DNA of 64,000 nucleotides, from the NCBI RefSeq assembly GCF_000473995.1, contig NC_022571.1, forward strand, positions 2,511,416-2,575,415. The letters are read 5' to 3'. The notes below the pieces were generated by a model, which searched no databases, was not told the DNA's origin, and worked only from the letters and a program-made list of their open reading frames with translations. Source of the DNA: Clostridium saccharobutylicum DSM 13864. GTDB taxonomy: Bacteria > Bacillota > Clostridia > Clostridiales > Clostridiaceae. The position numbers and the translations under genes were made by a program. Shown piece after piece: positions 22,543 to 59,050 of this stretch (position 1 is the first letter of the stretch; every line of letters begins with the position of its first letter).

Positions 22543-22546
22543 AAAT

Positions 22547-22711
22547 TAGGCACATGAAATAAAATAACAAGTCCAAAATGTCATGATTATTTTGCATCAG
22601 GCAAGGAAGTGGATTTGTCTCATAGCAGGCTATTAGAGGAATCCACTAACGCAGCATGATGCAAAATAGGCTTGGCAGATGGGCTTGTTATTTTTTTTGA
22701 ATGTGCCTTAT
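22547..22711 (+). repeat. Structured palindromic element, full copy A (165 bp)
   Basis: The ends are inverted repeats: TTAGGCACAT plus AAAATAACAAGTCC on the left and GGGCTTGTTATTTT plus ATGTGCCTTA on the right. Inside is a second stem, ATTTTGCATCA with TGATGCAAAAT, a third, GTGGATT with AATCCAC, and an apical ATAG-CAGG-CTAT hairpin. The whole unit therefore folds as one long interrupted hairpin. Related copies are at 24215 and 41951, and shorter relatives at 38229 and 57304. No coding capacity. Confidence 0.85.
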
Positions 22712-22782
22712 ATCATTATTGCTAATTATATCAATAGTGATATAATTAAAATTATAAATTTTTAATATAAGGAGGCATGATA

Positions 22783-23631
22783 ATGGAAAAGATAGCATTG
22801 ATAACAGATAGTGCTTCTGACATTAGTGTTGAACTTTTAAAAGAAAATAATATAAAATTACTACCTTTTAAAGTTATATATAGTGAAGGGGAATATGAAG
22901 ATAGAACTGAAATAACGCCTAAAATGATGTATGAGCGTTTATCTACTGAAATTCCTAAAACATCATTACCAAGTATAGAAAAAATACATACTACTCTTAA
23001 GAATGTTGTGGATGAGGGATATACTCATGCTATTATAATTACAATATCAAAAGCTTTTTCAGGAACTTATAATGCTGTGAGGTTAGTATGTCAAGAATTC
23101 TCAGACCTCGAGACTTTTATCTTTGACTCAAAAACTTTGACTATGGCTCAAGGGGCTATGGTTTTAGAAACTGCAAATCTAATAAAAGAAGGAAAGTCAT
23201 TTAGAGAAATATGTAAAATCCTACCTACATTTAGAGAAAAAATTGACTTGTTTTTTACATTAGATACTTTAGAATATCTTCAAAAGGGTGGTAGAATTGG
23301 TAAAGTTGCAGGAACAATTGGAAACCTTTTAAATGTTAAGCCAATAATAACTGTAGCTGATGATGGTACTTATAGAACTGCTGCAAAAGTAAGAGGCTCA
23401 AAACAAGCAGTATCAAAAATGACTAATATATTTAAAGGATATTTAGAAAAACATAAATACAAAGCCTGGATTTTAGATGGATATGGTGAGGATAAAGTTG
23501 AAGCATTATATAAAGAAATAAAGGATTTACCAAATGTTGTTGAATGTACTTTAGCAGGAACAATAGGCCCTGCGCTTGGAGTAAATACTGGCCCTGGTTT
23601 AGTGGGTCTTGCAATAGAAAAGGTAGATTGA
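22783..23631 (+). CDS. DegV-family fatty-acid-binding protein
   Basis: A 282-residue DegV (PF02645) protein that binds a fatty acid; relatives (FakB) present fatty acids to the kinase FakA for phosphorylation. It begins IALITDSASDISVELLKENNIKLLPFKV and has TSLPSIEK, ITISKAFSGTYNAV, FTLDTLEYLQKGGRIGKVAGTIGNLLNVKPI and C-terminal AGTIGPALGVNTGPGLVGLA, all family marks. ATG 22783 is 7 bp from GGAGG; the ATG at 22777 is too close. The stop is 2 bp before the PadR start, implying a two-gene operon. Confidence 0.93.
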   Translation: MEKIALITDSASDISVELLKENNIKLLPFKVIYSEGEYEDRTEITPKMMYERLSTEIPKTSLPSIEKIHTTLKNVVDEGYTHAIIITISKAFSGTYNAVRLVCQEFSDLETFIFDSKTLTMAQGAMVLETANLIKEGKSFREICKILPTFREKIDLFFTLDTLEYLQKGGRIGKVAGTIGNLLNVKPIITVADDGTYRTAAKVRGSKQAVSKMTNIFKGYLEKHKYKAWILDGYGEDKVEALYKEIKDLPNVVECTLAGTIGPALGVNTGPGLVGLAIEKVD

Positions 23632-23633
23632 AT

Positions 23634-24092
23634 ATGAGTGGCAAATTGGATTTTCAAAGCATAGAAGATATAAAAGCAGAGGAAAAAAGATTATATGAGG
23701 AATATAAAAATAAAGTTGCTGCTTTAAAAAAAGCTAAGCAGGAAAAAAAATCAGGTACTCAAATTTTTACAAAAGGATTGTTACCTATATATGTATTATA
23801 TATTTTATCTTTAGGTCCAACTAACGGAAATGAAATATCACATAAAATTGGTGTTAGAACAAAAGGAAAATGGACCCCTAGCACAGGCGGAATTTATCCG
23901 CTTTTGAAAAGGTTAGAAACTGACGAGCTTATTGAGGGACAATGGGATGATATTGATAAGAAATTCCAAAAGACATATTATTTAACTGAAAAAGGATACA
24001 AGGAATTAGAAAATAAAAAATTGATCTTAAAATCTAAAATACAGGAATCCCTAGAAGTATTTAATGTAATATATAATGATCTGTATAGATAA
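23634..24092 (+). CDS. PadR-family transcriptional regulator
   Basis: A 152-residue PadR-like winged-helix protein. The N-terminal 45 residues form a charged helix (IEDIKAEEKRLYEEYKNKVAALKKAKQEKK), followed by the PadR core GLLPIYVLYILSLGPTNGNEISHKIGVRTKGKWTPSTGGIYPLLKRLETDELIEGQWD and TYYLTEKGYKEL. The start is ATG 23634, immediately after the DegV TGA, so translation is probably coupled. Upstream in-frame codons reach back into degV but have no ribosome site. Target genes unknown; it may control its own operon. Confidence 0.88.
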   Translation: MSGKLDFQSIEDIKAEEKRLYEEYKNKVAALKKAKQEKKSGTQIFTKGLLPIYVLYILSLGPTNGNEISHKIGVRTKGKWTPSTGGIYPLLKRLETDELIEGQWDDIDKKFQKTYYLTEKGYKELENKKLILKSKIQESLEVFNVIYNDLYR

Positions 24093-24214
24093 ATTTTAAT
24101 TTGAAATTGAAATGTGTTAATAGATGGCTGGGCTATAAATCAATTTTCATTATATATACTTATTAAGTTGGATTAAATTCGACATATTTAGTATAATGAA
24201 AAAGTTATGACATT

Positions 24215-24378
24215 TAAGGCACAATCAAAAAAATAATAGACCAGTATGCTTGCATATTCCATGTCATACTACGTCAACAAATTGTGCTAATAGACCCACT
24301 ATGAGCATAAATTCTCTCCTTGTATGACAAGAAATATGCATCGCATCTTTGGTTTATTATTTTTATGATTATGCCTAA
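24215..24378 (-). repeat. Structured palindromic element, full copy B (164 bp), inverted orientation
   Basis: Left TAAGGCACAATCA and right TGATTATGCCTA are terminal inverted repeats with AAAAATAATA tracts next to them. Read on the minus strand the core matches copies at 22547 and 41951 (CAAGGA, CTCATAG, GG, CTATTA, GACGTAGTATGA). Its middle stem, GTCATAC with GTATGAC, differs from the other copies yet pairs fully. It fills most of the 317-bp gap between the PadR and BaiN-like genes. Confidence 0.82.
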
Positions 24379-24409
24379 AGAAATACAATTAAGGAGCTGA
24401 TTTTAAAAA

Positions 24410-25627
24410 TTGAGTAAAGTTATTGTTATAGGAGCAGGACCTGCTGGTATGATGGCTGCTATAGAGGCATCAAAAAATCACGAAGTGATATTATTAGATG
24501 GTAATGAAAGAATTGGGAAAAAGCTTTTTATTACAGGTAAAGGAAGATGTAATGTTACTAATGCAAAAGATATATCAGAATTTTTTGAGTACATACCAGG
24601 TAATCCTCATTTTCTATACAGTTCATTATATAGTTTTACAAATGATGATACTATGAATTTCTTTGAGAAAGAAGGAATTAAATTAAAAGTTGAAAGAGGA
24701 GATAGAGTTTTTCCACAATCAGATAAGTCTTCAGATATAATACGTGGATTATCAAATGCATTAAGCAGAACAAATGTTAAAATTAGATTAAACTCAAAAG
24801 TAACAGATATTAAATTTAAAGATAAAAAAATAACTGAACTTATGATAAACAATGAAGAAAGTTTAGTTGGAGATTATTATATTATGGCAACAGGAGGAGC
24901 ATCATATCCTCTTACTGGTTCTAGAGGGGAAGGGCAGGAATTTGCAAAAAAATTAGGGCATAATATAATTCCGCTTACTCCAGCTCTTGTTCCAATTGAA
25001 ATAAAAGATTCTAAGACAAGAGAACTTATGGGATTGTCGTTAAGAAATGTAGAAATTGTTATTAAGGAAAATGATAAAAAAGTAGTATATAAGAATTTTG
25101 GAGAAATGTTATTTACGCATTTTGGAGTTTCAGGACCACTTGTATTAAGTGGAAGTAGATTTATAAAGAAGGATAAAGAATACAAATTACATATTGATTT
25201 AAAACCTGCTCTAAATTTAGGAGAATTAGATAAGAGAGTTCAAAAAGATTTTAATAAGTATTTAAATAAAGACTTTAAAAATTCGTTGGATGAATTACTA
25301 CCTCAAAAATTAATTCCAACTGTTATTGAACTGAGTGGTATTTCTGAAACTAAGAAAGTAAATGAAATAACTAAAGAGGAAAGAAAGAAATTAGTTAATG
25401 TAATTAAAGATTTAACGTATGATATTAAAGGTTTAAGACCACTTGCAGAAGGAATAGTTACAGCAGGTGGAGTTGATATAAAAGAAATAGATCCTTCAAC
25501 GATGAAATCAAAAATAATTAGCAATCTTTCCTTTTGTGGAGAAGTAATGGATGTAGATGCCTTTACCGGTGGGTATAATGTTCAAATAGCTTTTGCAACA
25601 GGATTTATAGCTGGAAATAATATTTAA
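24410..25627 (+). CDS. NAD(P)/FAD-dependent oxidoreductase, HI0933/BaiN-like
   Basis: A 405-residue flavoprotein of the HI0933-like family. The N-terminal Rossmann motif is VIVIGAGPAGMMAAIEASKNHEV, followed by GKKLFITGKGRCNVTNAKDISEF; later blocks are YYIMATGGASYPLTGSRGEGQEFAKKLGH, MLFTHFGVSGPLVLSGS and the C-terminal FAD-contact GEVMDVDAFTGGYNVQIAFATGFIAG. Physiological substrate is unknown for most members. The start is TTG 24410, with AAGGAG 13 bp upstream; no ATG fits. It precedes cmk and ispH-rpsA on the same strand. Confidence 0.9.
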   Translation: MSKVIVIGAGPAGMMAAIEASKNHEVILLDGNERIGKKLFITGKGRCNVTNAKDISEFFEYIPGNPHFLYSSLYSFTNDDTMNFFEKEGIKLKVERGDRVFPQSDKSSDIIRGLSNALSRTNVKIRLNSKVTDIKFKDKKITELMINNEESLVGDYYIMATGGASYPLTGSRGEGQEFAKKLGHNIIPLTPALVPIEIKDSKTRELMGLSLRNVEIVIKENDKKVVYKNFGEMLFTHFGVSGPLVLSGSRFIKKDKEYKLHIDLKPALNLGELDKRVQKDFNKYLNKDFKNSLDELLPQKLIPTVIELSGISETKKVNEITKEERKKLVNVIKDLTYDIKGLRPLAEGIVTAGGVDIKEIDPSTMKSKIISNLSFCGEVMDVDAFTGGYNVQIAFATGFIAGNNI

Positions 25628-25705
25628 TCCTTGTTAGAAAGAGTTAAAAATTGTATAATCTTATTGTAAGCGAAAACTATGAGGCGAAGAAATGAGGCGG
25701 ATAAT

Positions 25706-26362
25706 TTGAAAATTTCAGTAGCAATAGATGGACCAGCAGGAGCGGGTAAAAGCACAATTGCCAAACTAGTTGGTAAGGAATATAACCTTATGTACATAAA
25801 TACAGGAGCAATGTATAGGGCAGTTGCTTTAAAAGCTAAGGAGAACGGTTTATCTTCAAATAAAGTCGATGAAATATGTAAATTAATAAGCAAAATGGAA
25901 ATGCATTTTGAAAATGATGATTTAATAGTTGATGGAGAAAATATTCAAGAAAAGATAACTATGCCAGAAATAAGCAATATAGTATCAAATTATGCTAGTA
26001 TTCCAGAAGTTAGATCAATACTTGTAAAACTTCAAAGAGATATGTCAAATAAATTTGATGTTATTATGGATGGTAGGGACATTGGAACTGTTGTACTTAA
26101 AGATGCGAGCTTTAAATTCTTTTTGACAGCTAGTGCTGATGAAAGAGCAAATAGAAGATTTAAAGAATTACAAAAGAGAAATATAGAATGTTCATATGAC
26201 CAAATTCTAAAAGATATAATAGATAGAGATTATAAAGATACTCATAGACCAACTGATCCATTAAAAAAAGCTGATGATGCTATAGAAATAGATAGCACCA
26301 AACTTGATATTAATGGAGTTGTAGAAAAAATTAATGAGTACATAAGAAAAGGGAAAAAATAA
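25706..26362 (+). CDS. cmk: Cytidylate kinase
   Basis: Phosphorylates CMP and dCMP with ATP. The 218-residue protein has the P-loop ISVAIDGPAGAGKSTIAK, the NMP-binding block YINTGAMYRAVALKAKENGL, DGRDIGTVVLKDASFKFFLTASADERANRR and the lid region RDYKDTHRPTDPLKKADDA. I start at TTG 25706, which has GAGGCGG upstream; an in-frame ATG at 25679 has no ribosome site. It lies 15 bp before ispH-rpsA, an order (cmk-ispH/S1) conserved in clostridia. Confidence 0.94.
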   Translation: MKISVAIDGPAGAGKSTIAKLVGKEYNLMYINTGAMYRAVALKAKENGLSSNKVDEICKLISKMEMHFENDDLIVDGENIQEKITMPEISNIVSNYASIPEVRSILVKLQRDMSNKFDVIMDGRDIGTVVLKDASFKFFLTASADERANRRFKELQKRNIECSYDQILKDIIDRDYKDTHRPTDPLKKADDAIEIDSTKLDINGVVEKINEYIRKGKK

Positions 26363-26377
26363 GGAGATACAAAAGCG

Positions 26378-28279
26378 ATGAGGGAAGTAGTTTTAGCAAA
26401 TAATGCTGGGTTTTGCTTTGGAGTTCAGAGAGCTGTTAAAGAAGCTCTTAAAATTCAAAAGGAACATAATGCAAAAATTTATACATTAGGTCCCTTAATA
26501 CATAATAACGATGTAGTTAAATTCTTAGAAGAAAATAATATATTTTCTATAGAATTAAATGAAGTGGATCAATTAAATAAAGGCGATGTAATTGTTATAA
26601 GATCTCATGGAGTTCCTGAAGAAATTTTGACTATGCTGGAAGAAAAACAATTTGAAGTTGTAAATGCAACCTGTCCTTTTGTTACAAATATTCAAAAGAA
26701 GGTTAAGAAATATTCCAAGGAAGGTTATCATATAGTAATATTAGGTGATAAAAATCATCCAGAAGTTATAGGAATAAATGGATGGTGTAATCATAAAGCT
26801 ATAATCACTAAAGATGGTACTTTTGAGGAAGATATTCCACAGAAGGTTTGTGTAGTATCCCAAACTACTGAGAAATTAAAAAATTGGGAGAATACTTTAA
26901 AAAACTTATCAAAAGTAAAAGAACTAATATCTTTTAATACTATTTGTGCAGCTACTGATGTTAGACAAAGAAGTACAGAAAAAGTTTCTCAAGAAGTAGA
27001 TGCGATGATTGTCATTGGAGGAAAAAATAGTTCTAATACTACTAAATTGTATCAAATTGCAAAAGAAAATTGTGAACAAACAATTCATATAGAAAATTTA
27101 ACAGAACTACCAGAGGATTTTATTAATAATAATATAAAAAAAATAGGAGTTACAGCTGGTGCATCAACACCAGATTGGATTATTAGGGAGGTACTTAATA
27201 CTATGAATGCAGAAAATAATAATTTTGAAGATCAATTATCATTAATGAATGAGCTAGATAAAAGATTTGCTATTGGAGATGAAGTTGAAGGAGAAATACT
27301 TTCTAAAACTAGAGATTCTATATTAGTTTCATTAGTAGGATATAAGAGTGATGGTGTTATATCTTTTTCTGAGTTATCAGCAAAAGAAGATCCAATAGAA
27401 TTAGCAGAAAAACTTAATGTAGGTGATACTATTAAAGCAAAAGTTATAAAGCTTCAAAATAGTGATGGATATGTAGTTTTATCTAGATTAGAATATGAAA
27501 GAGAAGAAGCCTTTAAAGAACTTGAAGAACTATTTACTCAAGGAAAAACTTTTGAAATAACTATTAGAGAAGCTAAGGAAAAAGGATTAGTAGCAAACTA
27601 TAAAGGGGTTAGAATCTTTGTACCTGCTTCACAAATCGATAATAAATTTACTAAAGATAAAGAATCATATGTTGGAAAGACAATAGAAGTTAAATTAATT
27701 GATTTTTCTTTAAAAAATCCTATAAAAATTGTAGCATCAAGAAGAATATTAATTGAAGCTGAGAAAAATGAACAAGATGTTAAAGCTTGGGAAAGTTTTA
27801 ACTTAGGAGATGTAGTTAAAGGTGAAGTTAAGAGATTTACAAACTTTGGAGCATTTGTTGAAATAAATGGAATCGATGGATTATTACATTTATCACAAAT
27901 TTCTTGGAGTCATGTTAAGAAAGCTGAAGACATTTTAAAAGAAGGTCAAATAATAGAAGTTAAAATTATTGGTCTTGATAAAGAAGCTAAGAAATTATCT
28001 TTAAGTATGAAGGAATTAATGCCAAAGCCTTGGGATAATGTTAAAGAAAAATATCCTGAAGATTCAATAGTTCTTGGAAAAGTAGTAAGACTTAATGATT
28101 TTGGCGCTTTTGTAGAATTAGAACCTGGAGTAGATGGATTAGTTCATATCTCTAAAATATCTCATAATAGAATAGAGCATCCTTCAGAAGTTTTAAAGGT
28201 AGGTCAAGAAATTAAAGCTAAAATACTAAGTGTTGATGAAGAAAACAAAAGAATCAGCTTAAGCATAAAAGATATTTAA
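26378..28279 (+). CDS. ispH: IspH-ribosomal protein S1 fusion (HMBPP reductase + S1 domains)
   Basis: Two-function protein of 633 residues. Residues 1-~283 are IspH, which reduces HMBPP to IPP and DMAPP, the last step of the MEP isoprenoid pathway; cluster-ligating cysteines are Cys13 ([13 protein letters not shown]) and those in NATCPFVTN and [11 protein letters not shown], with the SHGVP motif. Residues ~290-633 hold four S1 RNA-binding repeats (for example [20 protein letters not shown] and [30 protein letters not shown]). This fusion is well known in clostridia. AAGGAG precedes the ATG and a strong terminator follows. Confidence 0.96.
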
Positions 28280-28313
28280 TCTAAAAATAAATATTTATTA
28301 ATTTAAATTATAT

Positions 28314-28356
28314 GAATATCGTATATATAGAATGTGCTATATATACGATATTTTTT
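28314..28356 (+). terminator. Terminator of the cmk-ispH operon
   Basis: AATATCGTATATATAG at 28314-28329 pairs with CTATATATACGATATT at 28336-28351 across a 6-nt loop and is followed by TTTTT. Confidence 0.92.
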
Positions 28357-28439
28357 GGTAATAATTGGTGATTTGTTGGTTGACTAGAATACATATAAGA
28401 ATTATAATTTACTTATTAAAGAAGAAACGGAGAAACTTT

Positions 28440-29309
28440 ATGATTTTGGTTGAAAATTTATCACTTTTTAATATCGAATCTTTTAAAAAACTGTACAATG
28501 CAAATGAAAATGCTTATATATGCGATAAAGATTTTTTTGAAATATACAATGATGAATGTTTTATATTAAAATATATTATTAGAAAGCAAATTAAATTATT
28601 TAAAATAAAAGATGAGTATATAGGATATATTTGGTATGAATATCCATCTAATCGAGGTTTAAGTAATATCTATGCGTTATATGTAAAAGATGAGTATTTG
28701 GAATTAATAGACATATCTTTATTAGCGTCACTAAAAAGTTGTGCACTCAAGTTTGATACTACAGATAATTTGAAAACAAGATATATTATGAATAAATTAC
28801 AATTTAATAGTGAATGTGAAACAATTTTAATGAGAATAGCTAGTATAAATTGCTATAATAATCTTTATGATACATCATTAAGTTTTAAGCATTTTAAGAA
28901 AAAAAGAGATGAAAAATTAAGATGCGATATACAAAATTCAATATTCAATGATAAAGGAAGAACTCCGTTAACAATAAATGATATTTACGCAGAAGAAGAT
29001 GAATCGTATTATATAGATGATTATTCAGTATTTTTATACAATGATTATGATGATCCAGTAGGCTATGGTCAAATAATTTACAACAAAGGTATATATACGA
29101 TAGTTAACTTTGGAATTCTAAGCGAGTATAGAAATAAAGGATACGGAGAATCGTTAGTTAAATATTTAATTAAGTTATGTTATGAAGATTCTATAGATAG
29201 AGTGTATATTAGAGTAGAGAAGACAAACTACATAGCATTAGCTCTATATAATAAAATTGGCTTTAGGGAATGTGGTTTGTTTACAACTTGGTATAAAGGA
29301 ATAGGTTAA
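28440..29309 (+). CDS. GNAT-family N-acetyltransferase
   Basis: About 289 residues. The C-terminal third is a GNAT domain: IVNFGILSEYRNKGYGESLVKYLIKLCYE carries the acetyl-CoA pyrophosphate loop (RNKGYGE) and VEKTNYIALALYNKIGFRECGLFTTWY is the usual last strand/helix. The N-terminal ~170 residues look like a second, degenerate GNAT-like half. Start ATG 28440 follows CGGAGA; the longer reading from 28365 lacks a site. The substrate is unknown. The next small gene begins 30 bp downstream and is likely co-transcribed. Confidence 0.85.
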   Translation: MILVENLSLFNIESFKKLYNANENAYICDKDFFEIYNDECFILKYIIRKQIKLFKIKDEYIGYIWYEYPSNRGLSNIYALYVKDEYLELIDISLLASLKSCALKFDTTDNLKTRYIMNKLQFNSECETILMRIASINCYNNLYDTSLSFKHFKKKRDEKLRCDIQNSIFNDKGRTPLTINDIYAEEDESYYIDDYSVFLYNDYDDPVGYGQIIYNKGIYTIVNFGILSEYRNKGYGESLVKYLIKLCYEDSIDRVYIRVEKTNYIALALYNKIGFRECGLFTTWYKGIG

Positions 29310-29339
29310 ATTATAAGCTAATCCAATAGGAGGAAACAC

Positions 29340-29546
29340 ATGAATCGAGCACAAATTGATGAAGTTAAAGAAGCAATAAAAAATATACCTAAAAAACAAC
29401 AGGAAAATGTGTTACTAATCGCAAAAACACATGGTGTGAACAGAGCTTTTTTAGAAAGAATTAAAAATGCGAACTCAAGTAAAGAAAATCTATTTGAAGA
29501 TCCTATAGAAAAATATATAAAATTATTTAGTAAAGACTTAGATTAA
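29340..29546 (+). CDS. Small conserved-type hypothetical protein (68 aa)
   Basis: MNRAQIDEVKEAIKNIPKKQ begins a 68-residue, charged, mostly helical protein with no membrane span or cysteine. A perfect AGGAGG lies 8 bp upstream and the gene ends inside a terminator stem, so it is well placed for expression with the GNAT gene. I do not recognise the family. Confidence 0.7.
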   Translation: MNRAQIDEVKEAIKNIPKKQQENVLLIAKTHGVNRAFLERIKNANSSKENLFEDPIEKYIKLFSKDLD

Positions 29547-29572
29547 AAATTGTTTAAGTCTTTATTTTTTTT
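29531..29572 (+). terminator. Terminator overlapping the end of the 68-aa gene
   Basis: TAAAGACTTA at 29531-29540 pairs with TAAGTCTTTA at 29555-29564 and is followed by TTTTTTTT. The left arm is inside the last codons of the small gene. Confidence 0.85.
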
Positions 29573-29666
29573 ATATAAAACTTCTAATAAATTATTATAA
29601 TTATTTATAATCTGAGCATACTATACATATGGTCCTATAAAATTTTTTTATAAAGGAGGAATATTA

Positions 29667-30038
29667 ATGGCACATAAAGAACATAATGAACAACAAGTAC
29701 ATAAAAGTAGTATATCTGGTTGGATAGGCAGGTTTGTTATGATTGCAGTTATTTTAGCAATAACATCATTTTTAACACCTGGTTTTAGTATTAATGGACT
29801 ATGGTCATTTTTATTAGCAGCAATTGTTATAACAGTATTAGATTATTTAGTAGAATCATTTATGGGAGTTGATGCATCACCATTTGGAAAGGGAATTAAA
29901 GGATTTGTTATTGCTGCGATAATATTATATATAGCACAATTCATAGTTCCTAATATGAGAGTGTCTATAATAGGATCATTATTAGCTGCTTTAGTTATAG
30001 GAATATTAGATGCAGTTTTACCTGGAAGGGCAATGTAA
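29667..30038 (+). CDS. Phage-holin-4-type (YvlD-like) membrane protein
   Basis: A 123-residue protein with four hydrophobic segments (FVMIAVILAITSFL, LWSFLLAAIVITVLDYLV, IKGFVIAAIILYIAQFIV, VSIIGSLLAALVIGILDAVL) after a hydrophilic His/Gln-rich head. This layout and the LAAIVITVLDYLV motif fit the Phage_holin_4_2/YvlD family (PF04020), membrane proteins of unknown function often tied to envelope stress rather than phage. No phage genes surround it. AAGGAGG precedes the ATG. Monocistronic, ended by a strong terminator. Confidence 0.82.
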   Translation: MAHKEHNEQQVHKSSISGWIGRFVMIAVILAITSFLTPGFSINGLWSFLLAAIVITVLDYLVESFMGVDASPFGKGIKGFVIAAIILYIAQFIVPNMRVSIIGSLLAALVIGILDAVLPGRAM

Positions 30039-30113
30039 ATTATACATAATCAATTTAATTGAGAAATTACTATTCCTATTCTTAAGTAGATTATAAACTA
30101 AATAAATTTTTGT

Positions 30114-30153
30114 GATTACCCTAAATATGTTTTATATTTAGGGTAATCTTTTT
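30114..30153 (+). terminator. Terminator of the holin-like gene
   Basis: GATTACCCTAAATA at 30114-30127 pairs with TATTTAGGGTAATC at 30135-30148 and is followed by TTTTTAT. Confidence 0.92.
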
Positions 30154-30239
30154 ATATATGACTTATCTAAGTTTAAAACTATGTATAGTGTTAATTTATT
30201 CAACTAAATTCTTGACCTCTTTTAATATAATAAATTATT

Positions 30240-30248
30240 TGTTATAAT
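30240..30248 (+). promoter_or_regulatory. Extended -10 promoter of miaB
   Basis: TG-T-TATAAT lies 37 bp before the miaB start codon. A TTGACC at 30211 is too far upstream for ideal spacing. Confidence 0.5.
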
Positions 30249-30285
30249 ACTAAAGACATTGTAAATAAAAATGGAGGAACAAATA

Positions 30286-31644: not shown

Positions 31645-31659
31645 ATATAGGAAATATAT

Positions 31660-31703
31660 AAATCTAAGGTAATTAGAATGATTCTAATTACCTTAGATTT
31701 TTT
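31660..31703 (+). terminator. Terminator of miaB
   Basis: A 19-bp perfect stem, AAATCTAAGGTAATTAGAA at 31660-31678 with its complement at 31682-31700, has a 3-nt loop and runs into TTTC. Very strong hairpin; on the minus strand it could also serve the surface-protein remnant. Confidence 0.9.
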
Positions 31704-31742
31704 CTTTATTTAAAAATATTTAATTTTTCTTAACAAAACAAA

Positions 31743-34700: not shown

Positions 34701-35187
34701 TTCTTTAATGGGTCATTAGGATATAATGAATTTGTCACAAGAGAACAAGGAATATTAGTAATTTTTGAAGATGTTATTTTAGCAGTAAATTCACTTGTTC
34801 CTTTATATAAGAAAATCTACAATTTTCAACTAAGCAGTTATTTGTATTTTTCCCAAAGAATGAAATTCCACGTCTAGTTATTCGTGTAATTTCTATATTA
34901 TCTATAACAATGTTTTCGCCACCGTTTTCCTCAAAATGTATAGCATCTCTAAATAAAAAATTTTCACTACCATCTATTTTAAAATTACTTATTCTAACAT
35001 TAGATGAGTTTATTGTTATAGCATATTTTGTTGAATCTTCGTTGAGTTTTGTTAAAGTACGGGAGTTTATACCAATTAAATTTACTGGTTTAGTGATAAG
35101 GATACCATTTATTTCGGTATTATAATCCAAATAGTAGATACCTTCATTTAAAAAAATAGTAGTACAATAGAAACAATTATTTAACAA
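31743..35187 (-). pseudogene. Decayed beta-helix/Ig-like repeat surface protein
   Basis: One long coding unit broken in at least three places. The 5' part (34774-35187) encodes a pectin-lyase-like beta-helix (INGILITKPVNLIGINSRTL, VRISNFKIDGSENFLFRDAI) and shifts frame near 34800, where adding one base to TATAAAGG would give SYIKGTSEF and continue. The 883-codon middle part carries repeated SbsA-like Ig modules (NQITITFSNAVL, TVIDLTFSTSMLSDVSGKG, VTIAFKFSNAIKN). An in-frame TAA at 32087-32089 is followed by more matching sequence (about 80 codons) to 31841, and a second frameshift there leads to a final 30-odd codons ending at 31743. No signal peptide or anchor is seen. TTG 35187 has AAGGA upstream. 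Sequencing error cannot be excluded. Confidence 0.8.
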
Positions 35188-35384
35188 GTGATTTAATTCC
35201 TTAATATTTCTTGCATAAAATTAAATAGTATCAAAATTATGGAATTATTTTTGCCAAAAATTCTTGCAAAATTATTGTTCTTGCATAATTCAAAACAGAA
35301 GTTATAATAATCATAAGTATTGAATAATTCATAAAATTTAAGAAAGATAGATTCTTTAGAATTAAACATTAAATTATTTTTAAT

Positions 35385-35846
35385 TTAATTAACATTAATA
35401 TAAGAATTGCTAACAATTTTGTCTATAGCTAAAGTACAAAATTGAAAAATACAATTTTTAAGCAACGGGAGATAATTGTTCTCATTTACAGAAATGACAG
35501 AGACAAATCTAGAGAATGTACACTGTTTTAAAGACACAGAAGAATTAGAATGTGGTTCTAAGATTATTGCAGTATTTGTGTTATTTCCAATAAAGGTACA
35601 TTTATTAAACTTAATTTTAGAATCACTTCGTATATTAATTATATCTTCTGAATTTGAAAATGTAACATTTTCTATAATGATATCATTGCATATAAGTAGG
35701 AGACCAGATAATTCGCAGCTATTACCTATAATTTTAGAAGTATTACCTATGATAAGGGGAGAGGTAAATTTATAATTTTTCTGCATAAGAATTATTTGAT
35801 CCTCTGTGTTAATATATTTAAATAAGTCCTCAATTGTTTTGATCAT
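35385..35846 (-). CDS. Small right-handed beta-helix (pectin-lyase-like) protein
   Basis: A 153-residue protein starting MIKTIEDLFKYINTEDQII. From ~40 on it is a ladder of short hydrophobic strands (IENVTFSNSEDIINIRSDSKI, NKCTFIGNNTNTAIIL, SVSLKQCTFSRFVSVI, LPLLKNCIFQFCTLAI), the pattern of a parallel beta-helix. No catalytic motif or signal peptide. It lies ~200 bp upstream of the decayed surface-protein gene on the same strand and resembles that gene's N-terminal domain, so it may be a paralogue or a further fragment of the same locus. Confidence 0.6.
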   Translation of the reverse strand: MIKTIEDLFKYINTEDQIILMQKNYKFTSPLIIGNTSKIIGNSCELSGLLLICNDIIIENVTFSNSEDIINIRSDSKIKFNKCTFIGNNTNTAIILEPHSNSSVSLKQCTFSRFVSVISVNENNYLPLLKNCIFQFCTLAIDKIVSNSYINVN

Positions 35847-35975
35847 ATTTAACTCATAGCCTTATAGATTGTTTCAATGAAATATATTCTAAATTCAACA
35901 AAAATATGAGGTTGTGTTATAAATTTTAATTTATTTTATGAGTTAGTAGAGGAGTTCAACCTATGTATTTGTAGC

Positions 35976-36455
35976 TTATTTTATTACATCCATAAATGAG
36001 CAATCTATAACTTTTTCGAGATCGAGTGGATTCATTTCTATTTGTGCGCCTATTTTACCGCCGCTAAAAACTATTGTTTCAAACAATAAGGCTTCTTTTT
36101 GAATAAATGTTTTAAAAGCTTTTTTCATACCAAGTGGGGAACAGCCACCTCTAATATAACCTGTAATTTTGTTAATATCTTTTACATGAATCATTTCGAT
36201 ATTTTTTTCTCCAGCAACTTTGCTGCATTTCTTCATATCTAATTCGGCAGCAACTGGAATTACAAAAACATAAAATTCTTTTGAATGACCTTGAGTAACT
36301 AGTGTTTTGAAAACAGAATTAACATCCTTATCTATCTTGTGAGCAACTGCAACACCATCAATTTTACCATCTTTATTTTCGTAACTATGAGTTGTATACA
36401 TAATTTTATTGCGATCCAAAATTCTCATAGCATTTGTTTTACTTTCTTTTGCCAT
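35976..36455 (-). CDS. ybaK: Cys-tRNA(Pro)/Cys-tRNA(Cys) deacylase YbaK
   Basis: A 159-residue YbaK/EbsC-type editing enzyme that hydrolyses Cys-tRNA(Pro) formed by mischarging. Typical blocks are NAMRILDRNKIMYTTHSYENKDG, DKDVNSVFKTLVTQGHSKEFYVFVIPVAAELDMKKCSKVAGEK with the conserved Lys in VFKTL, GYIRGGCSPLGMKKAFKTFI and FSGGKIGAQIEMNPLDLEKV. GGAGG precedes the ATG. It is a single gene between the surface-protein locus and a long gene-free stretch. Confidence 0.94.
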   Translation of the reverse strand: MAKESKTNAMRILDRNKIMYTTHSYENKDGKIDGVAVAHKIDKDVNSVFKTLVTQGHSKEFYVFVIPVAAELDMKKCSKVAGEKNIEMIHVKDINKITGYIRGGCSPLGMKKAFKTFIQKEALLFETIVFSGGKIGAQIEMNPLDLEKVIDCSFMDVIK

Positions 36456-37050
36456 TATTAAAAAATTCCTCCTTGATATATTATTAAATAATTTTGAAAA
36501 TACTTTTTATATTATAACATAAAATTATATTGCTTCGAAATTCTTTAAAGTTATTTGTTTTTTCATAAAACCTTAGTTTTATTTTGCGGAATTCGAAAAA
36601 AATTCAAATGTAGATTTTATAGTTTGAATATTTTTTGAAATTTTAAAATTTGTCAAAATCTATTCTGTATAAAAATTCAACTTTTGGTATATAATTACTT
36701 ATATAGATTATTAAAGTAAAAATGTAATATTAATAATATGAAGTTATTTTATTTAAATTAAGTATTATTTTTATATAAATGTTATAAAATAATAAAATAT
36801 TAATTAAAATAAAAATCATAATTGATATGCAATTATTTAAATATACAAAACTAATTAGATAAAAAATAAAAAATAAAAAATAATTAAATTTCATATGTGA
36901 TTATTGATATAAGTTAATATTAATTATACATTTAAATTGTAAATGATATACTTAATAAGTAATGTGAATACGCAGATTTGAAAATTTACCGTTAAAAAGA
37001 GCGATTAATTTAAAGTAAAATTTGATTTAGTTTTAAAAAAATCCATATAA
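36456..37050. other. Gene-free AT-rich stretch
   Basis: About 600 bp between the divergent ybaK and xerC-like genes with very high A+T and no reading frame of interest. It contains a short tandem run of the 7-mer AAAAAAT at about 36861-36883. No other structure was found until the palindrome at 37051. Confidence 0.6.
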
Positions 37051-37082
37051 TTATTTCGGGAAATGTATATTTCCCGAAATAA
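37051..37082. repeat. Perfect 14-bp palindrome next to the recombinase promoter
   Basis: TTATTTCGGGAAAT at 37051-37064 and ATTTCCCGAAATAA at 37069-37082 form a perfect hairpin with a GTAT loop. The TCGGGA core is GC-rich against its surroundings. It abuts the -35 at 37083, the position expected for an operator; it is not followed by a T-run and no gene ends just before it. Confidence 0.6.
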
Positions 37083-37111
37083 TTGATTAAAAATTGTTTT
37101 CTTGGTATAAT
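37083..37111 (+). promoter_or_regulatory. Promoter of the xerC-like gene
   Basis: TTGATT at 37083-37088, 17-bp spacer, TATAAT at 37106-37111. The start codon is 42 bp downstream. Confidence 0.7.
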
Positions 37112-37152
37112 ATATATATCAACATTAAAAAATAACGACGGAGATATAAAAA

Positions 37153-38145
37153 ATGAAATATAATATGAATATATTTAAGGATACTGTAAATTTACCAGAG
37201 TCAGTAATTGATTTTCTTAATTACTTAGAGACAATCAAAAATAAATCCGAAAATACAATTACAGCTTACAAAAAGGATTTGACAATTTTCTTTAGATTTA
37301 TAACGATATATAAAGGCCTTGTAAAAGATGAAAAAATTGAATTTGAAGAAATTGATATAAGTTCTATTAATAATGATGTTTTAAAAAGCATTAAACTTAG
37401 AGATCTTTATGCATTTATGTCATTTACAGAAAAATATAGAAATAATAGCTCTTATGCAAGATCTAGAAAAGTTGCAACGTTGAAGTCTTATTTTAAATTT
37501 CTTCAAGGCAAAGCTAAAATCATTGACGAAAATCCTACATTGGAGCTAGAAACCCCAAAAATAAACAAAAGACACCCTATTTATCTTACACTAAATCAAA
37601 GCTTGCATTTATTAGATTCATTGGATAAAAGCAATAAGAATTATGCTCGAGATTATTGTATTTTAACTCTATTCTTGAATTGTGGAATGCGACTTTCGGA
37701 ACTTTGCGGAATTCAAATAAATAAAATCAAAAATGATACTCTTACTATCATAGGTAAAGGTAATAAAGAAAGAACTGTATATTTAAACGAGGCTTGTTTG
37801 AAAACTATTAGTAATTATTTAACTGTTAGAGATGATACAAAAGCTTTGCCAGAACATAAAAGCTTTTTATTTCTTTCAACTAGAAACAGTCCTATAAACC
37901 AAAGAACTGTTGAAATCATGATAAAAAAACACGTTACTAATGCTGGTTTTACAGACGAAAAATATACGCCTCATAAATTGAGACATACTGCAGCTACTCT
38001 TATGTACAAGTATGGAAATGTAGATATAAGAAGTCTCCAAAGCATCCTAGGTCATGAAAATATATCAACAACGCAAATTTATACACATGTTGATGATGAC
38101 GCGTTAAGGGATGCAGTAAAATCAAATCCACTTTCTAAATTATAG
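37153..38145 (+). CDS. xerC: Tyrosine recombinase, XerC/XerD-like
   Basis: Site-specific recombinase of 330 residues with the SAM-like N-terminal core-binding domain (SVIDFLNYLETIKNKSENTITAYKKDL) and a complete catalytic set: Arg180 (NCGMRLSEL), Lys202 (GKGNKERTVYL), His274 and Arg277 (HKLRHTAATLM), His301 (LGHENISTT) and nucleophile Tyr310 (QIYTHV). Similarity and its place beside lexA fit the chromosomal clostridial enzyme, not a phage integrase; no attachment site or phage gene was found. Ribosome site is GGAG. Whether it is the dif resolvase or a paralogue cannot be settled here. Confidence 0.88.
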   Translation: MKYNMNIFKDTVNLPESVIDFLNYLETIKNKSENTITAYKKDLTIFFRFITIYKGLVKDEKIEFEEIDISSINNDVLKSIKLRDLYAFMSFTEKYRNNSSYARSRKVATLKSYFKFLQGKAKIIDENPTLELETPKINKRHPIYLTLNQSLHLLDSLDKSNKNYARDYCILTLFLNCGMRLSELCGIQINKIKNDTLTIIGKGNKERTVYLNEACLKTISNYLTVRDDTKALPEHKSFLFLSTRNSPINQRTVEIMIKKHVTNAGFTDEKYTPHKLRHTAATLMYKYGNVDIRSLQSILGHENISTTQIYTHVDDDALRDAVKSNPLSKL

Positions 38146-38228
38146 TTTGAAATCATACAATCACTCTCCTATTACGTTAAACTTTTACACTTATATAAAA
38201 CATAAAAATTATTTTAATATTGGTTTTG

Positions 38229-38282
38229 CGGCACAATTAAATAAATAACAACTTTGGACTTGTCGTTTATTTGATTGTGTCT
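38229..38282. repeat. Structured element, internally deleted derivative C (54 bp)
   Basis: GCGGCACAATTAAATAAATA and, as its inverted partner, TTTATTTGATTGTGTCTA flank a short centre containing GGACTTGTC. These match only the outer arms of the ~164-bp elements at 22547, 24215 and 41951, joined directly. It lies about 85 bp beyond the xerC-like gene. Confidence 0.65.
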
Positions 38283-38317
38283 AACTTTATGTCAATTCTA
38301 GCGATAATACAAAAAAT

Positions 38318-38355
38318 AAAGCTACTTTCTATAAAAAATATAAAAAGTAGCTTTT
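38318..38355. terminator. Bidirectional terminator between xerC-like and lipoprotein genes
   Basis: AAAGCTACTTT at 38318-38328 pairs with AAAGTAGCTTT at 38344-38354; T-runs exist on both strands, the longer (TTTTTT) on the minus strand just past the lipoprotein stop. Confidence 0.8.
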
Positions 38356-38357
38356 GT

Positions 38358-38879
38358 TTAAATTAGTGGTTTGCCATATAAACTCTCTAAATTATTAACG
38401 TATTCGGTGTCATTACCTTCATACACTATCAACGTATTCCCTCTTTTATAATAATATGGCTTACTTTTAAAGTCAGTTTTTACTCCATTTACAGTCATTC
38501 CGTCTTTTGAAATTGTATCTATATCAGATTTTATTGCATCAGCAGAATCATATTCGTAAACTCTGACCAAGTCATTACCTGCCGTATAATCTGTTTCAGT
38601 TCCTTTGAAATAATTTTTCTTGCTATTGGGTGATTCTTTGAGTTCATGACCAGCTTTTGCTATGTCATCTTTCACGTTTGTAGCAGTATATTTAGCAGAA
38701 TCAGCACCTTCTTTTGCTGCTTCGCCTGCTTTGTTAGTGCCTTCGGTAATTTTGTTATTATTAGATGTATTATCATTATTACCGGTTTTATTAGAATTAG
38801 TCCAGCTACATCCAACTGTAAGGATTGAAGTTCCTAAAATCATAACAAAAGTTAATATTTTAAATAATCTTCTTTTCAT
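38358..38879 (-). CDS. Putative lipoprotein
   Basis: About 173 residues with a lipoprotein signal peptide (KRRLFKILTFVMILGTSILTVGC, lipobox LTVGC), then an Asn/Lys/Thr-rich linker and a helical segment (KAGEAAKEGADSAKYTATNVKDDIAKAGHELKE) like those of envelope-stress lipoproteins. The C-terminal ~80 residues form a compact domain (DLVRVYEYDSADAIKSDIDTISKDGMTVNG) of unknown function. ATG 38879 is chosen because AAAGG lies 9 bp upstream; the ATG at 38888 abuts it. Own terminator downstream. Confidence 0.85.
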   Translation of the reverse strand: MKRRLFKILTFVMILGTSILTVGCSWTNSNKTGNNDNTSNNNKITEGTNKAGEAAKEGADSAKYTATNVKDDIAKAGHELKESPNSKKNYFKGTETDYTAGNDLVRVYEYDSADAIKSDIDTISKDGMTVNGVKTDFKSKPYYYKRGNTLIVYEGNDTEYVNNLESLYGKPLI

Positions 38880-38993
38880 ATTTCTCATCCTTTCTCAGTA
38901 AAATATGTATTACGAGATTAGTATTCGAAATAAATAGAAAAATTATTCAAAAATTAAAAGCTTAACTATTCTTCTTTAATCAGAGCTCTGCTT

Positions 38994-39428
38994 CTACTCT
39001 ATAACCTTTTTAAATCTTCTAACACCTGGATAAACCTCTTCTGTCATTTCTTCAAAATCTGCGTCATTAATATCTTTTAACTCATCTATATATTCTATAT
39101 GATCAAAAGCATCTTCGTACTCTTCTTCTGTATACTCAAAGTTGCTTTTTTTATTAGAATTAATATTATTACCAAATTTATTATATATTTCTTTTAGATC
39201 AAGATTTTCTTCATTTACTTCATTAAGTTCGTCTTCATCTAAAGAAGATCTTAAGTCGTTTAAAAACTCTTCTTCTAATAATGCATTTTCTTCTTGTGTT
39301 TTTGCTATATCTTCTATTTTGATTGCTTTGGTATCTATTCCTTCCATTTCTAAGCACTTACCGCAATTGTCACAAATTTTATTTTCATATATATCACAAT
39401 AATCATCATCAGTATATTTATAATTCAT
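38994..39428 (-). CDS. Acidic hypothetical protein with a CxxC-type motif
   Basis: A 144-residue very acidic protein. Near the N-terminus the four cysteines of YCDIYENKICDNCGKCLEM could bind zinc or iron; the rest is Glu/Asp-rich helix (LLEEEFLNDLRSSLDEDELNEVNEENLDL and FEYTEEEYEDAFDHIEYIDEL). No relative is recognised by name. It is transcribed divergently from lexA with a 170-bp shared region, so LexA control is possible (inference). Confidence 0.7.
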   Translation of the reverse strand: MNYKYTDDDYCDIYENKICDNCGKCLEMEGIDTKAIKIEDIAKTQEENALLEEEFLNDLRSSLDEDELNEVNEENLDLKEIYNKFGNNINSNKKSNFEYTEEEYEDAFDHIEYIDELKDINDADFEEMTEEVYPGVRRFKKVIE

Positions 39429-39532
39429 TTATAACACCTCAATCTCTTTATTATAAAGTCATTTTATCATTATATCAAAAGTATTTTAATTAAGCAAATT
39501 ATATTCTGTAAAACATATAGAAATAGTCACAA

Positions 39533-39571
39533 GAACATAGGTTTGCCATAAAGAATAAGGTATGATATAAT
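39533..39571 (+). promoter_or_regulatory. lexA promoter with overlapping degenerate SOS box
   Basis: TTGCCA at 39543-39548, 17-bp spacer and TATAAT at 39566-39571 (extended by TG). GAACATAGGTTT at 39533-39544 matches GAAC-N4-GTTC with one mismatch and overlaps the -35, fitting autorepression by LexA. The box match is imperfect. Confidence 0.55.
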
Positions 39572-39598
39572 ATCAAATAAGAATGCGAGGTGTGTGTA

Positions 39599-40204
39599 AT
39601 GGCAGACGAAAAGGATAAACAATCAGAAATATATGAGTTTTTAAAAACCTACACAGAAAGTAAGGGGTACCCTCCTTCTGTAAGAGAAATTTGTGAAGCA
39701 GTATCTTTAAGATCAACTTCAACTGTTCATGGTCATTTGAAAAGATTAGAGAGAAAAGGCTTGATTAAAAGAGATCCGTCCAAACCAAGAGCTTTAGAAA
39801 TAGCAGAATTATCTACTACTAAAAGAGAAATGATTAACATTCCTATTATAGGTAAGATAACTGCAGGTCTACCAATACTTGCAACTGAAAATATAGAAGA
39901 TACTTTTTCTTTACCATTAGATTTTGTAAAACATAATAAAGAGCTTTTTATCTTGCGCGTATCAGGAGAAAGCATGATTGAAGCTGGTATAAATAATAAT
40001 GATTTAGCTATTATTGAAAGTTCTAATAGTGCGATGAATGGAGATATAGTAGTTGCTCTGATTGAAGATTCTGCTACTATTAAAAGATTCTTCAAAGAAA
40101 AAGATCATATTAGACTTCAGCCAGAAAATAGCACTATGGAACCAATTATAGTTGATTATTGTTCTATTTTAGGAAAACTAGTTGGAATATTTAGATCGTA
40201 TTAA
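39599..40204 (+). CDS. lexA: LexA repressor
   Basis: SOS-response repressor of 201 residues. The N-terminal winged helix ([44 protein letters not shown]) binds DNA; the self-cleavage bond is Ala89-Gly90 (GKITAGLPI), and the serine-lysine dyad is Ser125 (SGESMIEAG) and Lys162 (SATIKRF). Start is ATG 39599, 7 bp after GAGGTG; the upstream in-frame GTG at 39590 overlaps that site. It is convergent with the PLP-enzyme gene. Confidence 0.97.
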
Positions 40205-40258
40205 ATAATCTCAACTTATAAACTTACATAGTTATATTTTATTATGATATATTCTAAT

Positions 40259-40303
40259 AAATAAAAGCTTTCTCACAATTTAATGAGAAAGCTTTTATTT
40301 ATT
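40259..40303. terminator. Bidirectional terminator between lexA and the PLP-enzyme gene
   Basis: AATAAAAGCTTTCTCA at 40259-40274 pairs with its perfect complement TGAGAAAGCTTTTATT at 40284-40299, with T-rich tails on both strands. Confidence 0.9.
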
Positions 40304-40318
40304 AATATTAAAATTTTA

Positions 40319-41605
40319 TTAAACTTCTAATACCTTGCTTAAACCAATAAGCACACCTATTTTTCCGTGATCAAAATTTAAACCGCCTTGCATGTAAGCT
40401 ATATAAGGTTCTCTAACAGGACCATCTGCTGATAATTCAATTGTTGAGCCTGAAATAAACGCTCCAGCCGCCATTACTATCTCGCTATCATATCCCGGCA
40501 TTGCCCATGGCTCACAAACTGCAAAAGCATCAATTGGTGAACCGGCTTGAATTCCACTACAGAAATTAACTAATTTTTTAGCATCACCGAATTCTATAGC
40601 TTGTATTATATCTGTTCTTTTATCTGTAGAAGCTGGGAATACTTTAAATCCTGCAATTTCCATAACTCTAGCTGTAAAGATTGCAGTTTTAACAGCTTCT
40701 ATAGCTACATGAGGCGCAGAGAATAATCCTTGATAGAAACTTCTCATAAGACCATAAGTTGCACCATACTCGCCTCCTACTCCAGGAACTGTCATTCTGT
40801 TAGCTGCTGCATCTACATACTCTTGTTTACCAACTATATATCCGCCACCTGGTGCAATTCCCCCTCCTATATTTTTCATAAGAGATCCTGCCATCAAATC
40901 AGCTCCAAACTCTGTTGGTTCTTCAGTTTCAATAAATTCTCCATAGCAGTTATCAACAAAGATTATTACATCTTTTCTAACTTGTCTTATGCATTCTATT
41001 ACCTCTGCTATTTGAGATACTAAGAACGATTTTCTTGAAGCATATCCTGTACTTCTTTGAATATGTATTAGTTTTATGCTTTTGTCATTCTTAAGTGCTT
41101 TTTGAATTTCATCAAACTGAAATTTTCCTTCTGAATCTAAATCTACAACATCTGTTTTGATTCCATATTCATCTAATGATCCTGGATTCTTCTTTTTTGA
41201 TAGACCTAATACTCCAAGTAATGTATCATATGGAAGTCCTGAAACACAAAGTATTTTATCTCCAGGTCTTACATTACCAGCAATGGCTGCTCCAATTGCG
41301 TGTGTACCACTTACAAAATGAGGTCTAACAAGTCCAGCTTCAGTTTTAAATATATGAGCATATACATTATCAAGCGCATCACGACCTAAGTCATCAAGAC
41401 CATATCCAGTTGTATTTGTAAAATGCGAATCACTTATTCTTTCTTCTTGAAAAGCTCTTAAAACCTTAAGTTGATTAAATTCTCTTATTTCATCATATTC
41501 TTTTAATGTCATTTCAATATCACAGATAGCCTGTCTATATATTTCAAATGTTTTCTCATTAATAGCATAATTTCCTTTTAAAAATTCTTCTGTTTTTCTT
41601 AACAT
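40319..41605 (-). CDS. PLP-dependent methionine gamma-lyase-like (aluminium-resistance family) protein
   Basis: A 428-residue fold-type I PLP protein of the Met_gamma_lyase/YnbB family (PF06838). Family marks are DSHFTNTTGYGLDDLGRDALDNVYA, PHFVSGTHAIGAAIAGNVRPGDKILCVSG, IIFVDNCYGEFIETEEPTEFGADLMAGSLMKNIGGGIAPGGGYI with the candidate PLP lysine in SLMKN, and AMPGYDSEIVMAAGAFISGS. Actual reaction is uncertain; the aluminium-resistance name is historical. It follows hfq by 74 bp on the same strand and probably ends the mutL-miaA-hfq transcript. Confidence 0.88.
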   Translation of the reverse strand: MLRKTEEFLKGNYAINEKTFEIYRQAICDIEMTLKEYDEIREFNQLKVLRAFQEERISDSHFTNTTGYGLDDLGRDALDNVYAHIFKTEAGLVRPHFVSGTHAIGAAIAGNVRPGDKILCVSGLPYDTLLGVLGLSKKKNPGSLDEYGIKTDVVDLDSEGKFQFDEIQKALKNDKSIKLIHIQRSTGYASRKSFLVSQIAEVIECIRQVRKDVIIFVDNCYGEFIETEEPTEFGADLMAGSLMKNIGGGIAPGGGYIVGKQEYVDAAANRMTVPGVGGEYGATYGLMRSFYQGLFSAPHVAIEAVKTAIFTARVMEIAGFKVFPASTDKRTDIIQAIEFGDAKKLVNFCSGIQAGSPIDAFAVCEPWAMPGYDSEIVMAAGAFISGSTIELSADGPVREPYIAYMQGGLNFDHGKIGVLIGLSKVLEV

Positions 41606-41679
41606 GTTTAGTTATTCTCCTTTAAGTATTGATATATTAAAACTTCACAAAAATAAATAGGCAGTAATTTGCCTATTTA

Positions 41680-41925
41680 TTATTTATTAGTACTTTCGTT
41701 ATCTACAAATAAAATTGGTTCAGATGGTGTTATTGTTGAGATTGAATGCTTATATATTAGCATTTGTTTATTTTCACATTCTAAAACAACAGTAAAACTA
41801 TCAAATCCCTTTACAACACCCTTCAATTGAAATCCATTTAATAAATGAATTGTTAATGGAATCTTATTCTTTCTTCCGTTGTTTAAAAAAATATCTTGTA
41901 AATTATTTTGTTGCTTATTGACCAA
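41680..41925 (-). CDS. hfq: RNA chaperone Hfq
   Basis: An 81-residue Sm-like protein forming hexameric rings that bind sRNAs and mRNAs. Sm1 is [28 protein letters not shown] and Sm2 is [14 protein letters not shown], including the YKHS nucleotide-binding motif. The N-terminus reads [16 protein letters not shown], typical of Firmicutes. GGAGGTG precedes the ATG. A ~163-bp structured repeat lies between miaA and this ribosome site, inside the presumed operon. Confidence 0.95.
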
Positions 41926-41950
41926 AATATAACACCTCCATAATTAGTAA

Positions 41951-42113
41951 TTAGGCATATGAAAATAAATAAAAAGTTCAATTTGCCGTGGAAATTTTTT
42001 ATCAGACAAGGAGGTAAATCGCCATCATAGCTGGCCTATTACGGCAATTTGCCGACGTAGTATAATGAAAAATAAGCAAGCAAATGGACTTGTTATTTTT
42101 TGAATGTGCCTTA
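41951..42113 (+). repeat. Structured palindromic element, full copy D (163 bp), between miaA and hfq
   Basis: Ends TTAGGCATATGAAAATAAAT and TTATTTTTTGAATGTGCCTTA are inverted repeats. The core reads ACAAGGAGGTAAATCGCC, then ATAG-CTGGC-CTAT, then GGCAATTTGCC and GACGTAGTAT. The inner stem GGTAAAT with ATTTGCC replaces GTGGATT with AATCCAC of copy A, a compensated change. The element is antisense to miaA and hfq and separates them without a clear T-run for the minus strand. Confidence 0.82.
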
Positions 42114-58996: not shown

Positions 58997-59050
58997 AAAA
59001 TTTTCATAATTCATATATAACCTACTAATTTACTACATTCTCTAATTATA

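Follow-up and report, generated by a model that had tools for sequence, protein, structure and literature searches.

A 64,000-nt window of the Clostridium saccharobutylicum DSM 13864 genome (contig NC_022571.1, assembly GCF_000473995.1, positions 2,511,416 to 2,575,415 of the forward strand) contains three full-length copies, here called A, B, and D, of a palindromic repeat. Copies of this element are dispersed through the genome, stand between target repeats, leave one orthologous site empty in a sister genome, covary in their stems, and retain a central core even under unrelated arms. Taken as a whole, they are probably non-autonomous DNA transposons of the miniature inverted-repeat transposable element (MITE) type, with a folded core that takes part in movement. 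The parts of this explanation differ in strength. That the repeat is a mobile element with a 3-bp repeat is nearly certain, and selection on the element to fold is likely; use of the core in mobility is a possibility that we put forward with some hesitation.

Dispersed copies, target repeats, and an empty site

A first-pass annotation of the window had recorded three repeat copies, and all three were found where it placed them, the true elements being 159, 158, and 157 bp long between TTA repeats assigned by eye. The family has terminal inverted repeats of the form GGCACA..TGTGCC and was modeled with R1, a covariance model of 32 copies that include A, B, and D. Copy A (22549 to 22707, plus strand; R1 match 22546 to 22711, E = 5.6e-38) is bounded by TTA at 22546 to 22548 and 22708 to 22710. 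The two conserved sides of its core internal loop are CAAGGA (22602 to 22607, 5' side, plus strand) and ACGCAGCAT (22649 to 22657, 3' side, plus strand). Copy B (24218 to 24375, minus strand; E = 4.9e-25) lies between repeats that read TTA on the minus strand (24215 to 24217 and 24376 to 24378), and copy D (41954 to 42110, plus strand; E = 1e-27) lies between TTA at 41951 to 41953 and 42111 to 42113.

A BLAST search with copy A gave 82 genome matches, many of which, given the palindromic sequence, were one place counted on both strands; the number of candidates scored was 40. Across the whole genome, R1 matched at least 150 candidates (150 of 150 scored). In a sample of 40 evenly spaced 20-kb stretches (800 kb of the 5.1-Mb genome), 88 distinct R1 matches were found at E ≤ 0.01, which gives a genome-wide estimate of ∼560 copies (∼450 to 690 from counting error alone). 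R1 also matched 23 of 68 genomes of the genus (up to at least 42 copies per genome), with matching contigs from Clostridium chromiireducens, C. uliginosum, C. beijerinckii HUN142, and C. weizhouense, among others. The covariance-model search proposed by the first-pass annotation was therefore productive, with many copies in this and other Clostridium genomes. No match to element A was retrieved by blastn from plasmids and phages. Elements do occur in IMG/VR viral contigs: one copy is common to L302 and L303 and a different one to L343 and L344, and L343 has a further element close by. Scanning viral contigs with a protein of the window gave no match.

Flanks were read for 120 elements (88 sampled, 3 from the window, and 29 from related genomes), of which 98 were readable and 22 were dropped. 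The flanking triplets were TTA on both sides in 53 cases, TAA on both sides in 26, mixed in 4 (2 of each order), and other in 15. Equal flanks thus occurred in 79/98 elements, compared with 45.7 expected under independence. An empty orthologous site, which the first-pass annotation had advised looking for, was found once: TTTTCA/TAACC is uninterrupted in sister genome G013, and the occupied site in G002 reads TTTTCA-element-TTA-TAACC, where the element breaks into a gene region that G013 has intact (surroundings 91 to 94% identical). A further 400 kb of the two genomes gave no second clean empty site; it contained one orthologous element present in both and one locus at which the two genomes differ more extensively. 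Another repeat family, of ∼300 to 320 bp (L079:1809-2129 in G002), has many matches listed in G002, G003, G013, and G007 and is missing from the orthologous G013 site. Taken together, the elements have the hallmarks of MITEs, namely, terminal inverted repeats, a target site duplication, and many dispersed copies without a transposase gene.

Lengths, with both triplets included, fell into several classes among the 88 sampled matches: 33 copies of 163 to 167 bp, 29 of 63 to 112 bp, and 7 of 207 to 238 bp; forms of ∼35 bp and ∼290 bp also exist. The near-constant length claimed at first therefore describes the main class but not the family overall. The copies of 63 to 112 bp that were opened had no core and retained TTA or TAA flanks. 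Within the window, a short form of ∼52 bp with ends but no core lies at 38230 to 38281 (R1 E = 0.0019), and 57304 to 57391 on the minus strand is probably a decayed copy that lacks both ends and core (E = 6.4e-5). In long copies, an additional module sits on the 3' side of the core loop. At the duplicated site L015/L104, the two copies of one insertion differ in form, one being short and one long; the center is therefore exchangeable in place.

The extra module (CCAAATCTATGATTTGG and GACTCGC..GCGAGTC hairpins; L031-L033, L099-L106, L154, L159, L085:2077-2203, and L209:15284-15354) also occurs outside elements in L154, L159, and L209, where it directly follows CTTA or TTA, and it is nested in itself in L159. 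It may therefore be an independent mobile hairpin. Separately, a hairpin insert of ∼41 nt (AGAAAAGAGCAGCTATGCTGC..) is present in one arm of elements from two species (L034; L438:10620-10790 versus L429:1738-1903), and its presence distinguishes the G002 and G013 versions of an orthologous element.

Covariation and constraint on the fold

Each element folds as a single long hairpin with conserved mismatches. An internal loop near the middle of the hairpin sets CAAGGA opposite ACG-N-AG-N-AT, the tip is a CATAG..CTATTA hairpin, and the core consensus is GNCAAGG[A/C].. / ..ACGCAG[T/C]. RNA folding energies of copies A, B, and D, computed with 5 to 10 flanking bases, were −79.8, −68.4, and −51.1 kcal/mol, with z-scores of −11.7, −8.8, and −5.3; none of 200 dinucleotide shuffles per copy equaled these values. 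In 25 elements from 23 genomes, aligned without reference to structure, 30 of 62 pairs had changed on both sides at least once and 94.5% of cells paired, and neither value was reached in 500 shuffles. Doubly changed cells numbered 112, compared with a shuffled mean of 28.9 (0/500) and at most 18 in slide controls. With partners moved by 1 to 3 columns, these controls gave at most 45.9% pairing and 12 pairs, a comparison that favors the structure, as it was derived from the same alignment. The compensatory stem changes described in the first-pass annotation are therefore real.

Covariation alone is also compatible with ordinary MITEs of one or more insertion sequence (IS) families, in which the ends alone matter, the core is an ancestral relic, and template-switch correction maintains the palindrome; template switching yields matched changes in both arms. 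The terminal repeats, target repeats, and dispersal agree with this explanation, as do the core-less short forms that retain the target repeat. Such correction should, however, erase conserved mismatches, whereas the CAAGGA / ACGNAG loop stays unpaired through changes in the stems. A second difficulty comes from mismatched pairs, since single-strand folding tolerates G·U but not A·C, whereas duplex DNA should show both equally. Among 132 elements, G·U exceeded A·C by 382 to 233 (37 pairs versus 11; P = 2e-4). The count was restricted to 58 Watson-Crick-majority pairs, as the structure itself was chosen with G·U allowed; the set was partly found by a structure model, which can favor G·U, and the P values are optimistic because the sequences are related. 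Ordinary MITEs also leave unexplained the similar lengths under unrelated arms and the 80 to 90% identical core shared by Bacillota and Streptomyces (see below). Overall, we regard ordinary MITEs as a rather unlikely account of these elements, compared with mobile hairpins whose folded core participates in movement.

The same covariation, the conserved internal loop, and the one-strand G·U excess could instead reflect a structured RNA, either cis-regulatory or small, that spreads as a passenger. Genomic context argues against it. By a simple open reading frame (ORF) caller, 3 of 91 elements were mostly inside an ORF, 6 were at stretch edges, and 82 were between genes, compared with 70.5% of random TWA sites inside ORFs. 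Neighboring genes were codirectional in 63 cases, divergent in 10, and convergent in 9, close to the arrangement at random intergenic TWA sites, and the orientation relative to codirectional genes was balanced (33 same, 30 opposite). With gene avoidance and no bias for either strand, the copies are unlikely to be a cis-regulatory RNA. At the site of copy A, moreover, none of 13 relatives (0/13) had an R1 match upstream of the orthologous gene. No Rfam family reached its gathering threshold at the elements, and E-value scans gave weak sub-threshold matches. The only ones of note, the plant microRNA hairpins MIR807 and MIR6140, reached 36.3 and 35.3 bits where the gathering scores are 113 and 140, which we read as the score of any long hairpin. 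A coding reading of the core (Shine-Dalgarno-like AAGGA followed by a short ORF) was discarded by eye, as copies differ by a 1-nt indel in the apical loop and the frame is not kept from one to another. We therefore consider a passenger RNA improbable. Elsewhere in the window, two purine riboswitches (58913 to 59014 and 57013 to 57112) and a T-box leader (60959 to 61217, minus strand) exceed Rfam thresholds.

The first-pass annotation had left the choice between a folded RNA and a hairpin DNA substrate. The mobile, MITE-like hairpin stands; the RNA option is weakened by the 33:30 orientation, although G·U exceeds A·C. Its further option, an IS200/IS605-type single-strand element mobilized by a Y1 transposase (TnpA) acting on hairpins, has some appeal, as Y1 enzymes recognize folded ends not unlike a hairpin that spans the whole element and has conserved mismatches. 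Terminal inverted repeats, a direct target repeat, and balanced replichore strands (79:71 of 150) leave it unsupported. The target repeat largely refutes this option, and we consider it very improbable. The impression that no named family matches was borne out as far as Rfam extends. Further copies exist, covariation exists, and no Rfam family matches; none of the outcomes that the annotation had named as refuting it occurred.

A core shared under exchanged arms

When named genomes were scanned for an exact pattern, 83 stretches were retrieved, and the 80 listed include some in Desulfosporosinus metagenome-assembled genomes (MAGs) on contigs of 40 to 43.5% G+C. Two of these MAGs contained at least 107 and at least 20 R1 copies (150 candidates scored in each). 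Against 398 Bacillota genomes, R1 matched four: this genome, G123, and, at one place each and through the core alone, G287 and G398. A core model, R2, was built from 22 sequences that include these last two places and matched 17 of the 398 genomes at E ≤ 0.01, with ∼4 expected by chance and E-values that are rough.

Terminal repeats were sought at 22 of the 30 R2 loci (L359, L374, and the loci of this genome and G123 were left out). Outside the modeled region, inverted repeats matching at 12 or more of 16 positions were present at 18 of 22 loci, compared with 12 of 220 places drawn at random from these loci; with the limit raised to 14 of 16, the counts were 16 of 22 and 1 of 220. In eleven elements with ends picked by hand, the complete length was 156 to 163 bp, while arms and targets differed. 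By eye, ends of the type GGCACATGAAA with a TWA target occur in Clostridium, Desulfosporosinus, and G123; ends of the type TAC[C/T][C/T]TGT.. have CTAG on both sides at several loci; and the types GGCGTGTCT and GGAACTGTTAAG have CTAG and TAA targets, respectively. The ends that would frame a parent transposase are GGCACATGAAA.., TAC[CT][CT]TGT[CG]A.., and GACCGACCGG.. At 64% identity, most of the G389 element can be aligned to the Desulfosporosinus type, and it is probably a distant cousin with diverged arms. In G398, L348 and L374 hold core hairpins without long arms, at least two of them adjacent and ∼112 nt apart.

The core extends beyond the Bacillota. The CTAG-type element L356 matched eight Streptomyces plasmid records, in the core only, with E-values down to 1e-7. 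At E ≤ 1e-3, blastn between CTAG-type and Streptomyces elements aligned a 51-nt core alone (88% identity for L356 and 80% for L353), and core identity between Bacillota and Streptomyces is 80 to 90% over 50 nt. With the Streptomyces core as the query, 28 plasmid records with 54 places were retrieved, all from Streptomyces. The Streptomyces element is a palindrome of ∼158 bp with GC-rich arms unrelated to the others. TTA flanks both sides at three sites (L416/L419, L418, and L420), the flanks of L415/L417 are GAA and TTA, and L418 and L420 have an insert at the hairpin tip. A candidate empty site in Streptomyces was unusable, as the left flank alone is homologous and the right flank matches 4 bases. 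Other blastn searches gave one weak match of L306 to an Anabaena plasmid, in an arm (E = 0.1), no plasmid match for L347, no phage match for L356, and no match for the L356 core in Escherichia coli genomes; the exact Streptomyces-type core pattern was not found in viral contigs.

Constant length, a conserved core, and interchangeable arms together suggest that the folded hairpin takes part in mobility, a role favored because the unpaired mid-loop and the length are kept while the arms are replaced, which would not be expected of a DNA element that depends on its ends alone. The recurrence of the folded center under different ends in distant bacteria likewise suggests that the fold matters for spread. 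In the explanation we favor, each palindrome of ∼158 bp inserts at TTA/TAA and leaves a 3-bp direct repeat, so that an enzyme supplied in trans, possibly a DDE transposase, most likely cuts at the GGCAC.. ends. Selection would favor one long hairpin in which the internal loop of the core keeps a set distance from either end, and the moving machinery may recognize this loop as a folded single strand, be it an RNA copy, single-stranded DNA, or extruded DNA. An element would then be defined by its core and by the length of its hairpin, with terminal sequences open to exchange. More speculatively, the palindromes may form a superfamily, spanning at least Bacillota and Streptomyces, that is defined by folded core and hairpin length rather than by ends, with arms replaced during evolution to suit whichever enzyme does the cutting (TWA or CTAG targets) and a core read as a folded strand by a putative shared factor.

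Several observations weigh against this proposal. The forms of 63 to 112 bp (29/88) may be later internal deletions or may be a sign that the core is dispensable. Four of the 22 R2 loci have no terminal repeat (L355, L360, L348, and L365), and L348 and L365, both in G398, are short forms, partly in tandem. Clostridium-type and CTAG-type elements gave no blastn alignment at E ≤ 1e-3, so their link rests on R2 and shared architecture. R2 does not match the Streptomyces loci at E ≤ 10; the chain therefore runs from R2 to the CTAG type and then through blastn. In the 32 copies found by BLAST, the G·U excess is weaker (66:33; 20 pairs versus 9; P = 0.06). The triplets at the G002 element of the empty-site comparison, TCA and TTA, are unequal; thus, one was altered or the duplication was imperfect. 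Finally, a transposase with matching ends was not found in the parts of the genomes and loci examined.

Parent transposases, related repeats, and significance

For transposases, PF13359 matched in 0 of 25 relatives, and none of the 18 PF01609 matches in this genome was framed by element ends. Element ends near two PF01609 loci, L163 and L174, were taken for separate copies. An end-pair scan of 1.92 Mb of loci listed 10 candidate pairs, and the ORFs between pairs in L182, L195, and L213 were viewed by eye; partnerless ends in G426 and G432 were truncated or short copies in the loci opened. Of the features that define PIF/Harbinger or IS5/IS1031 relatives, the 3-bp TWA duplication is present, and a related transposase with the same ends was not found in the genome. 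Eight PF01609 loci (L162-L169) have equal match coordinates, seven of them with equal score, and three that were compared share ∼1.52 kb at 99.6 to 100% identity. They are a recently active insertion sequence unrelated to the element ends.

Bacterial MITEs are usually viewed as insertion sequences with internal deletions, in which the middle plays no part, and we know of no bacterial MITE with a core common across phyla under changed arms. RUP and Correia elements duplicate TA, unlike the 3-bp TWA repeat here, and EFAR is modular with a 170-bp main form. PIF/Harbinger "Tourist" MITEs and the IS5 family (IS1031) comprise TWA, TNA, and CTAG target groups; our elements share their 3-bp TTA/TAA duplication but differ from the PIF/Harbinger and IS5 definitions in having a conserved central core. 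As in RUP, NEMIS/Correia, ERIC, and EFAR, the elements are short, non-coding, palindromic, multicopy, and intergenic, with terminal inverted repeats.

RUP, NEMIS/Correia, ERIC, and EFAR are named as MITEs in the literature (PMC3733652), the REP/RAYT definition is given as a GTAG/CGTC tag plus a RAYT transposase (PMC3733652), and PIF/Harbinger is characterized by a 3-bp target duplication. The bcr1 element of Bacillus cereus is 147 to 167 bp long (PMC2267715), repeated, mobile, and reportedly restricted to the B. cereus group, with a conserved stem-loop and a TTTAT motif (PMC6542083). Compared by description only, our elements resemble bcr1 in size, repetition, mobility, and a conserved stem-loop but have TTA or TAA flanks in place of the TTTAT motif. 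Clop-1 of C. perfringens (93 bp) and Clot-1 of C. tetani (74 bp) are stem-loop families (PMC2267715); set side by side by description only, they are likewise repeated clostridial stem-loops but differ in length. No description of the core or the elements was found in the available portions of the open-access literature (including PMC2267715, PMC10969869, PMC6542083, and PMC3733652), a search with subscription papers and ISfinder outside its scope.

The present result is a striking correlation and not a mechanism. Through it, many intergenic repeats left without annotation in Clostridium, Desulfosporosinus, and Streptomyces become connected. If a core is indeed kept across phyla under exchanged arms and at near-equal length, then the middle of a MITE has a function, and a role for folded DNA or RNA in moving non-autonomous elements would become directly testable.

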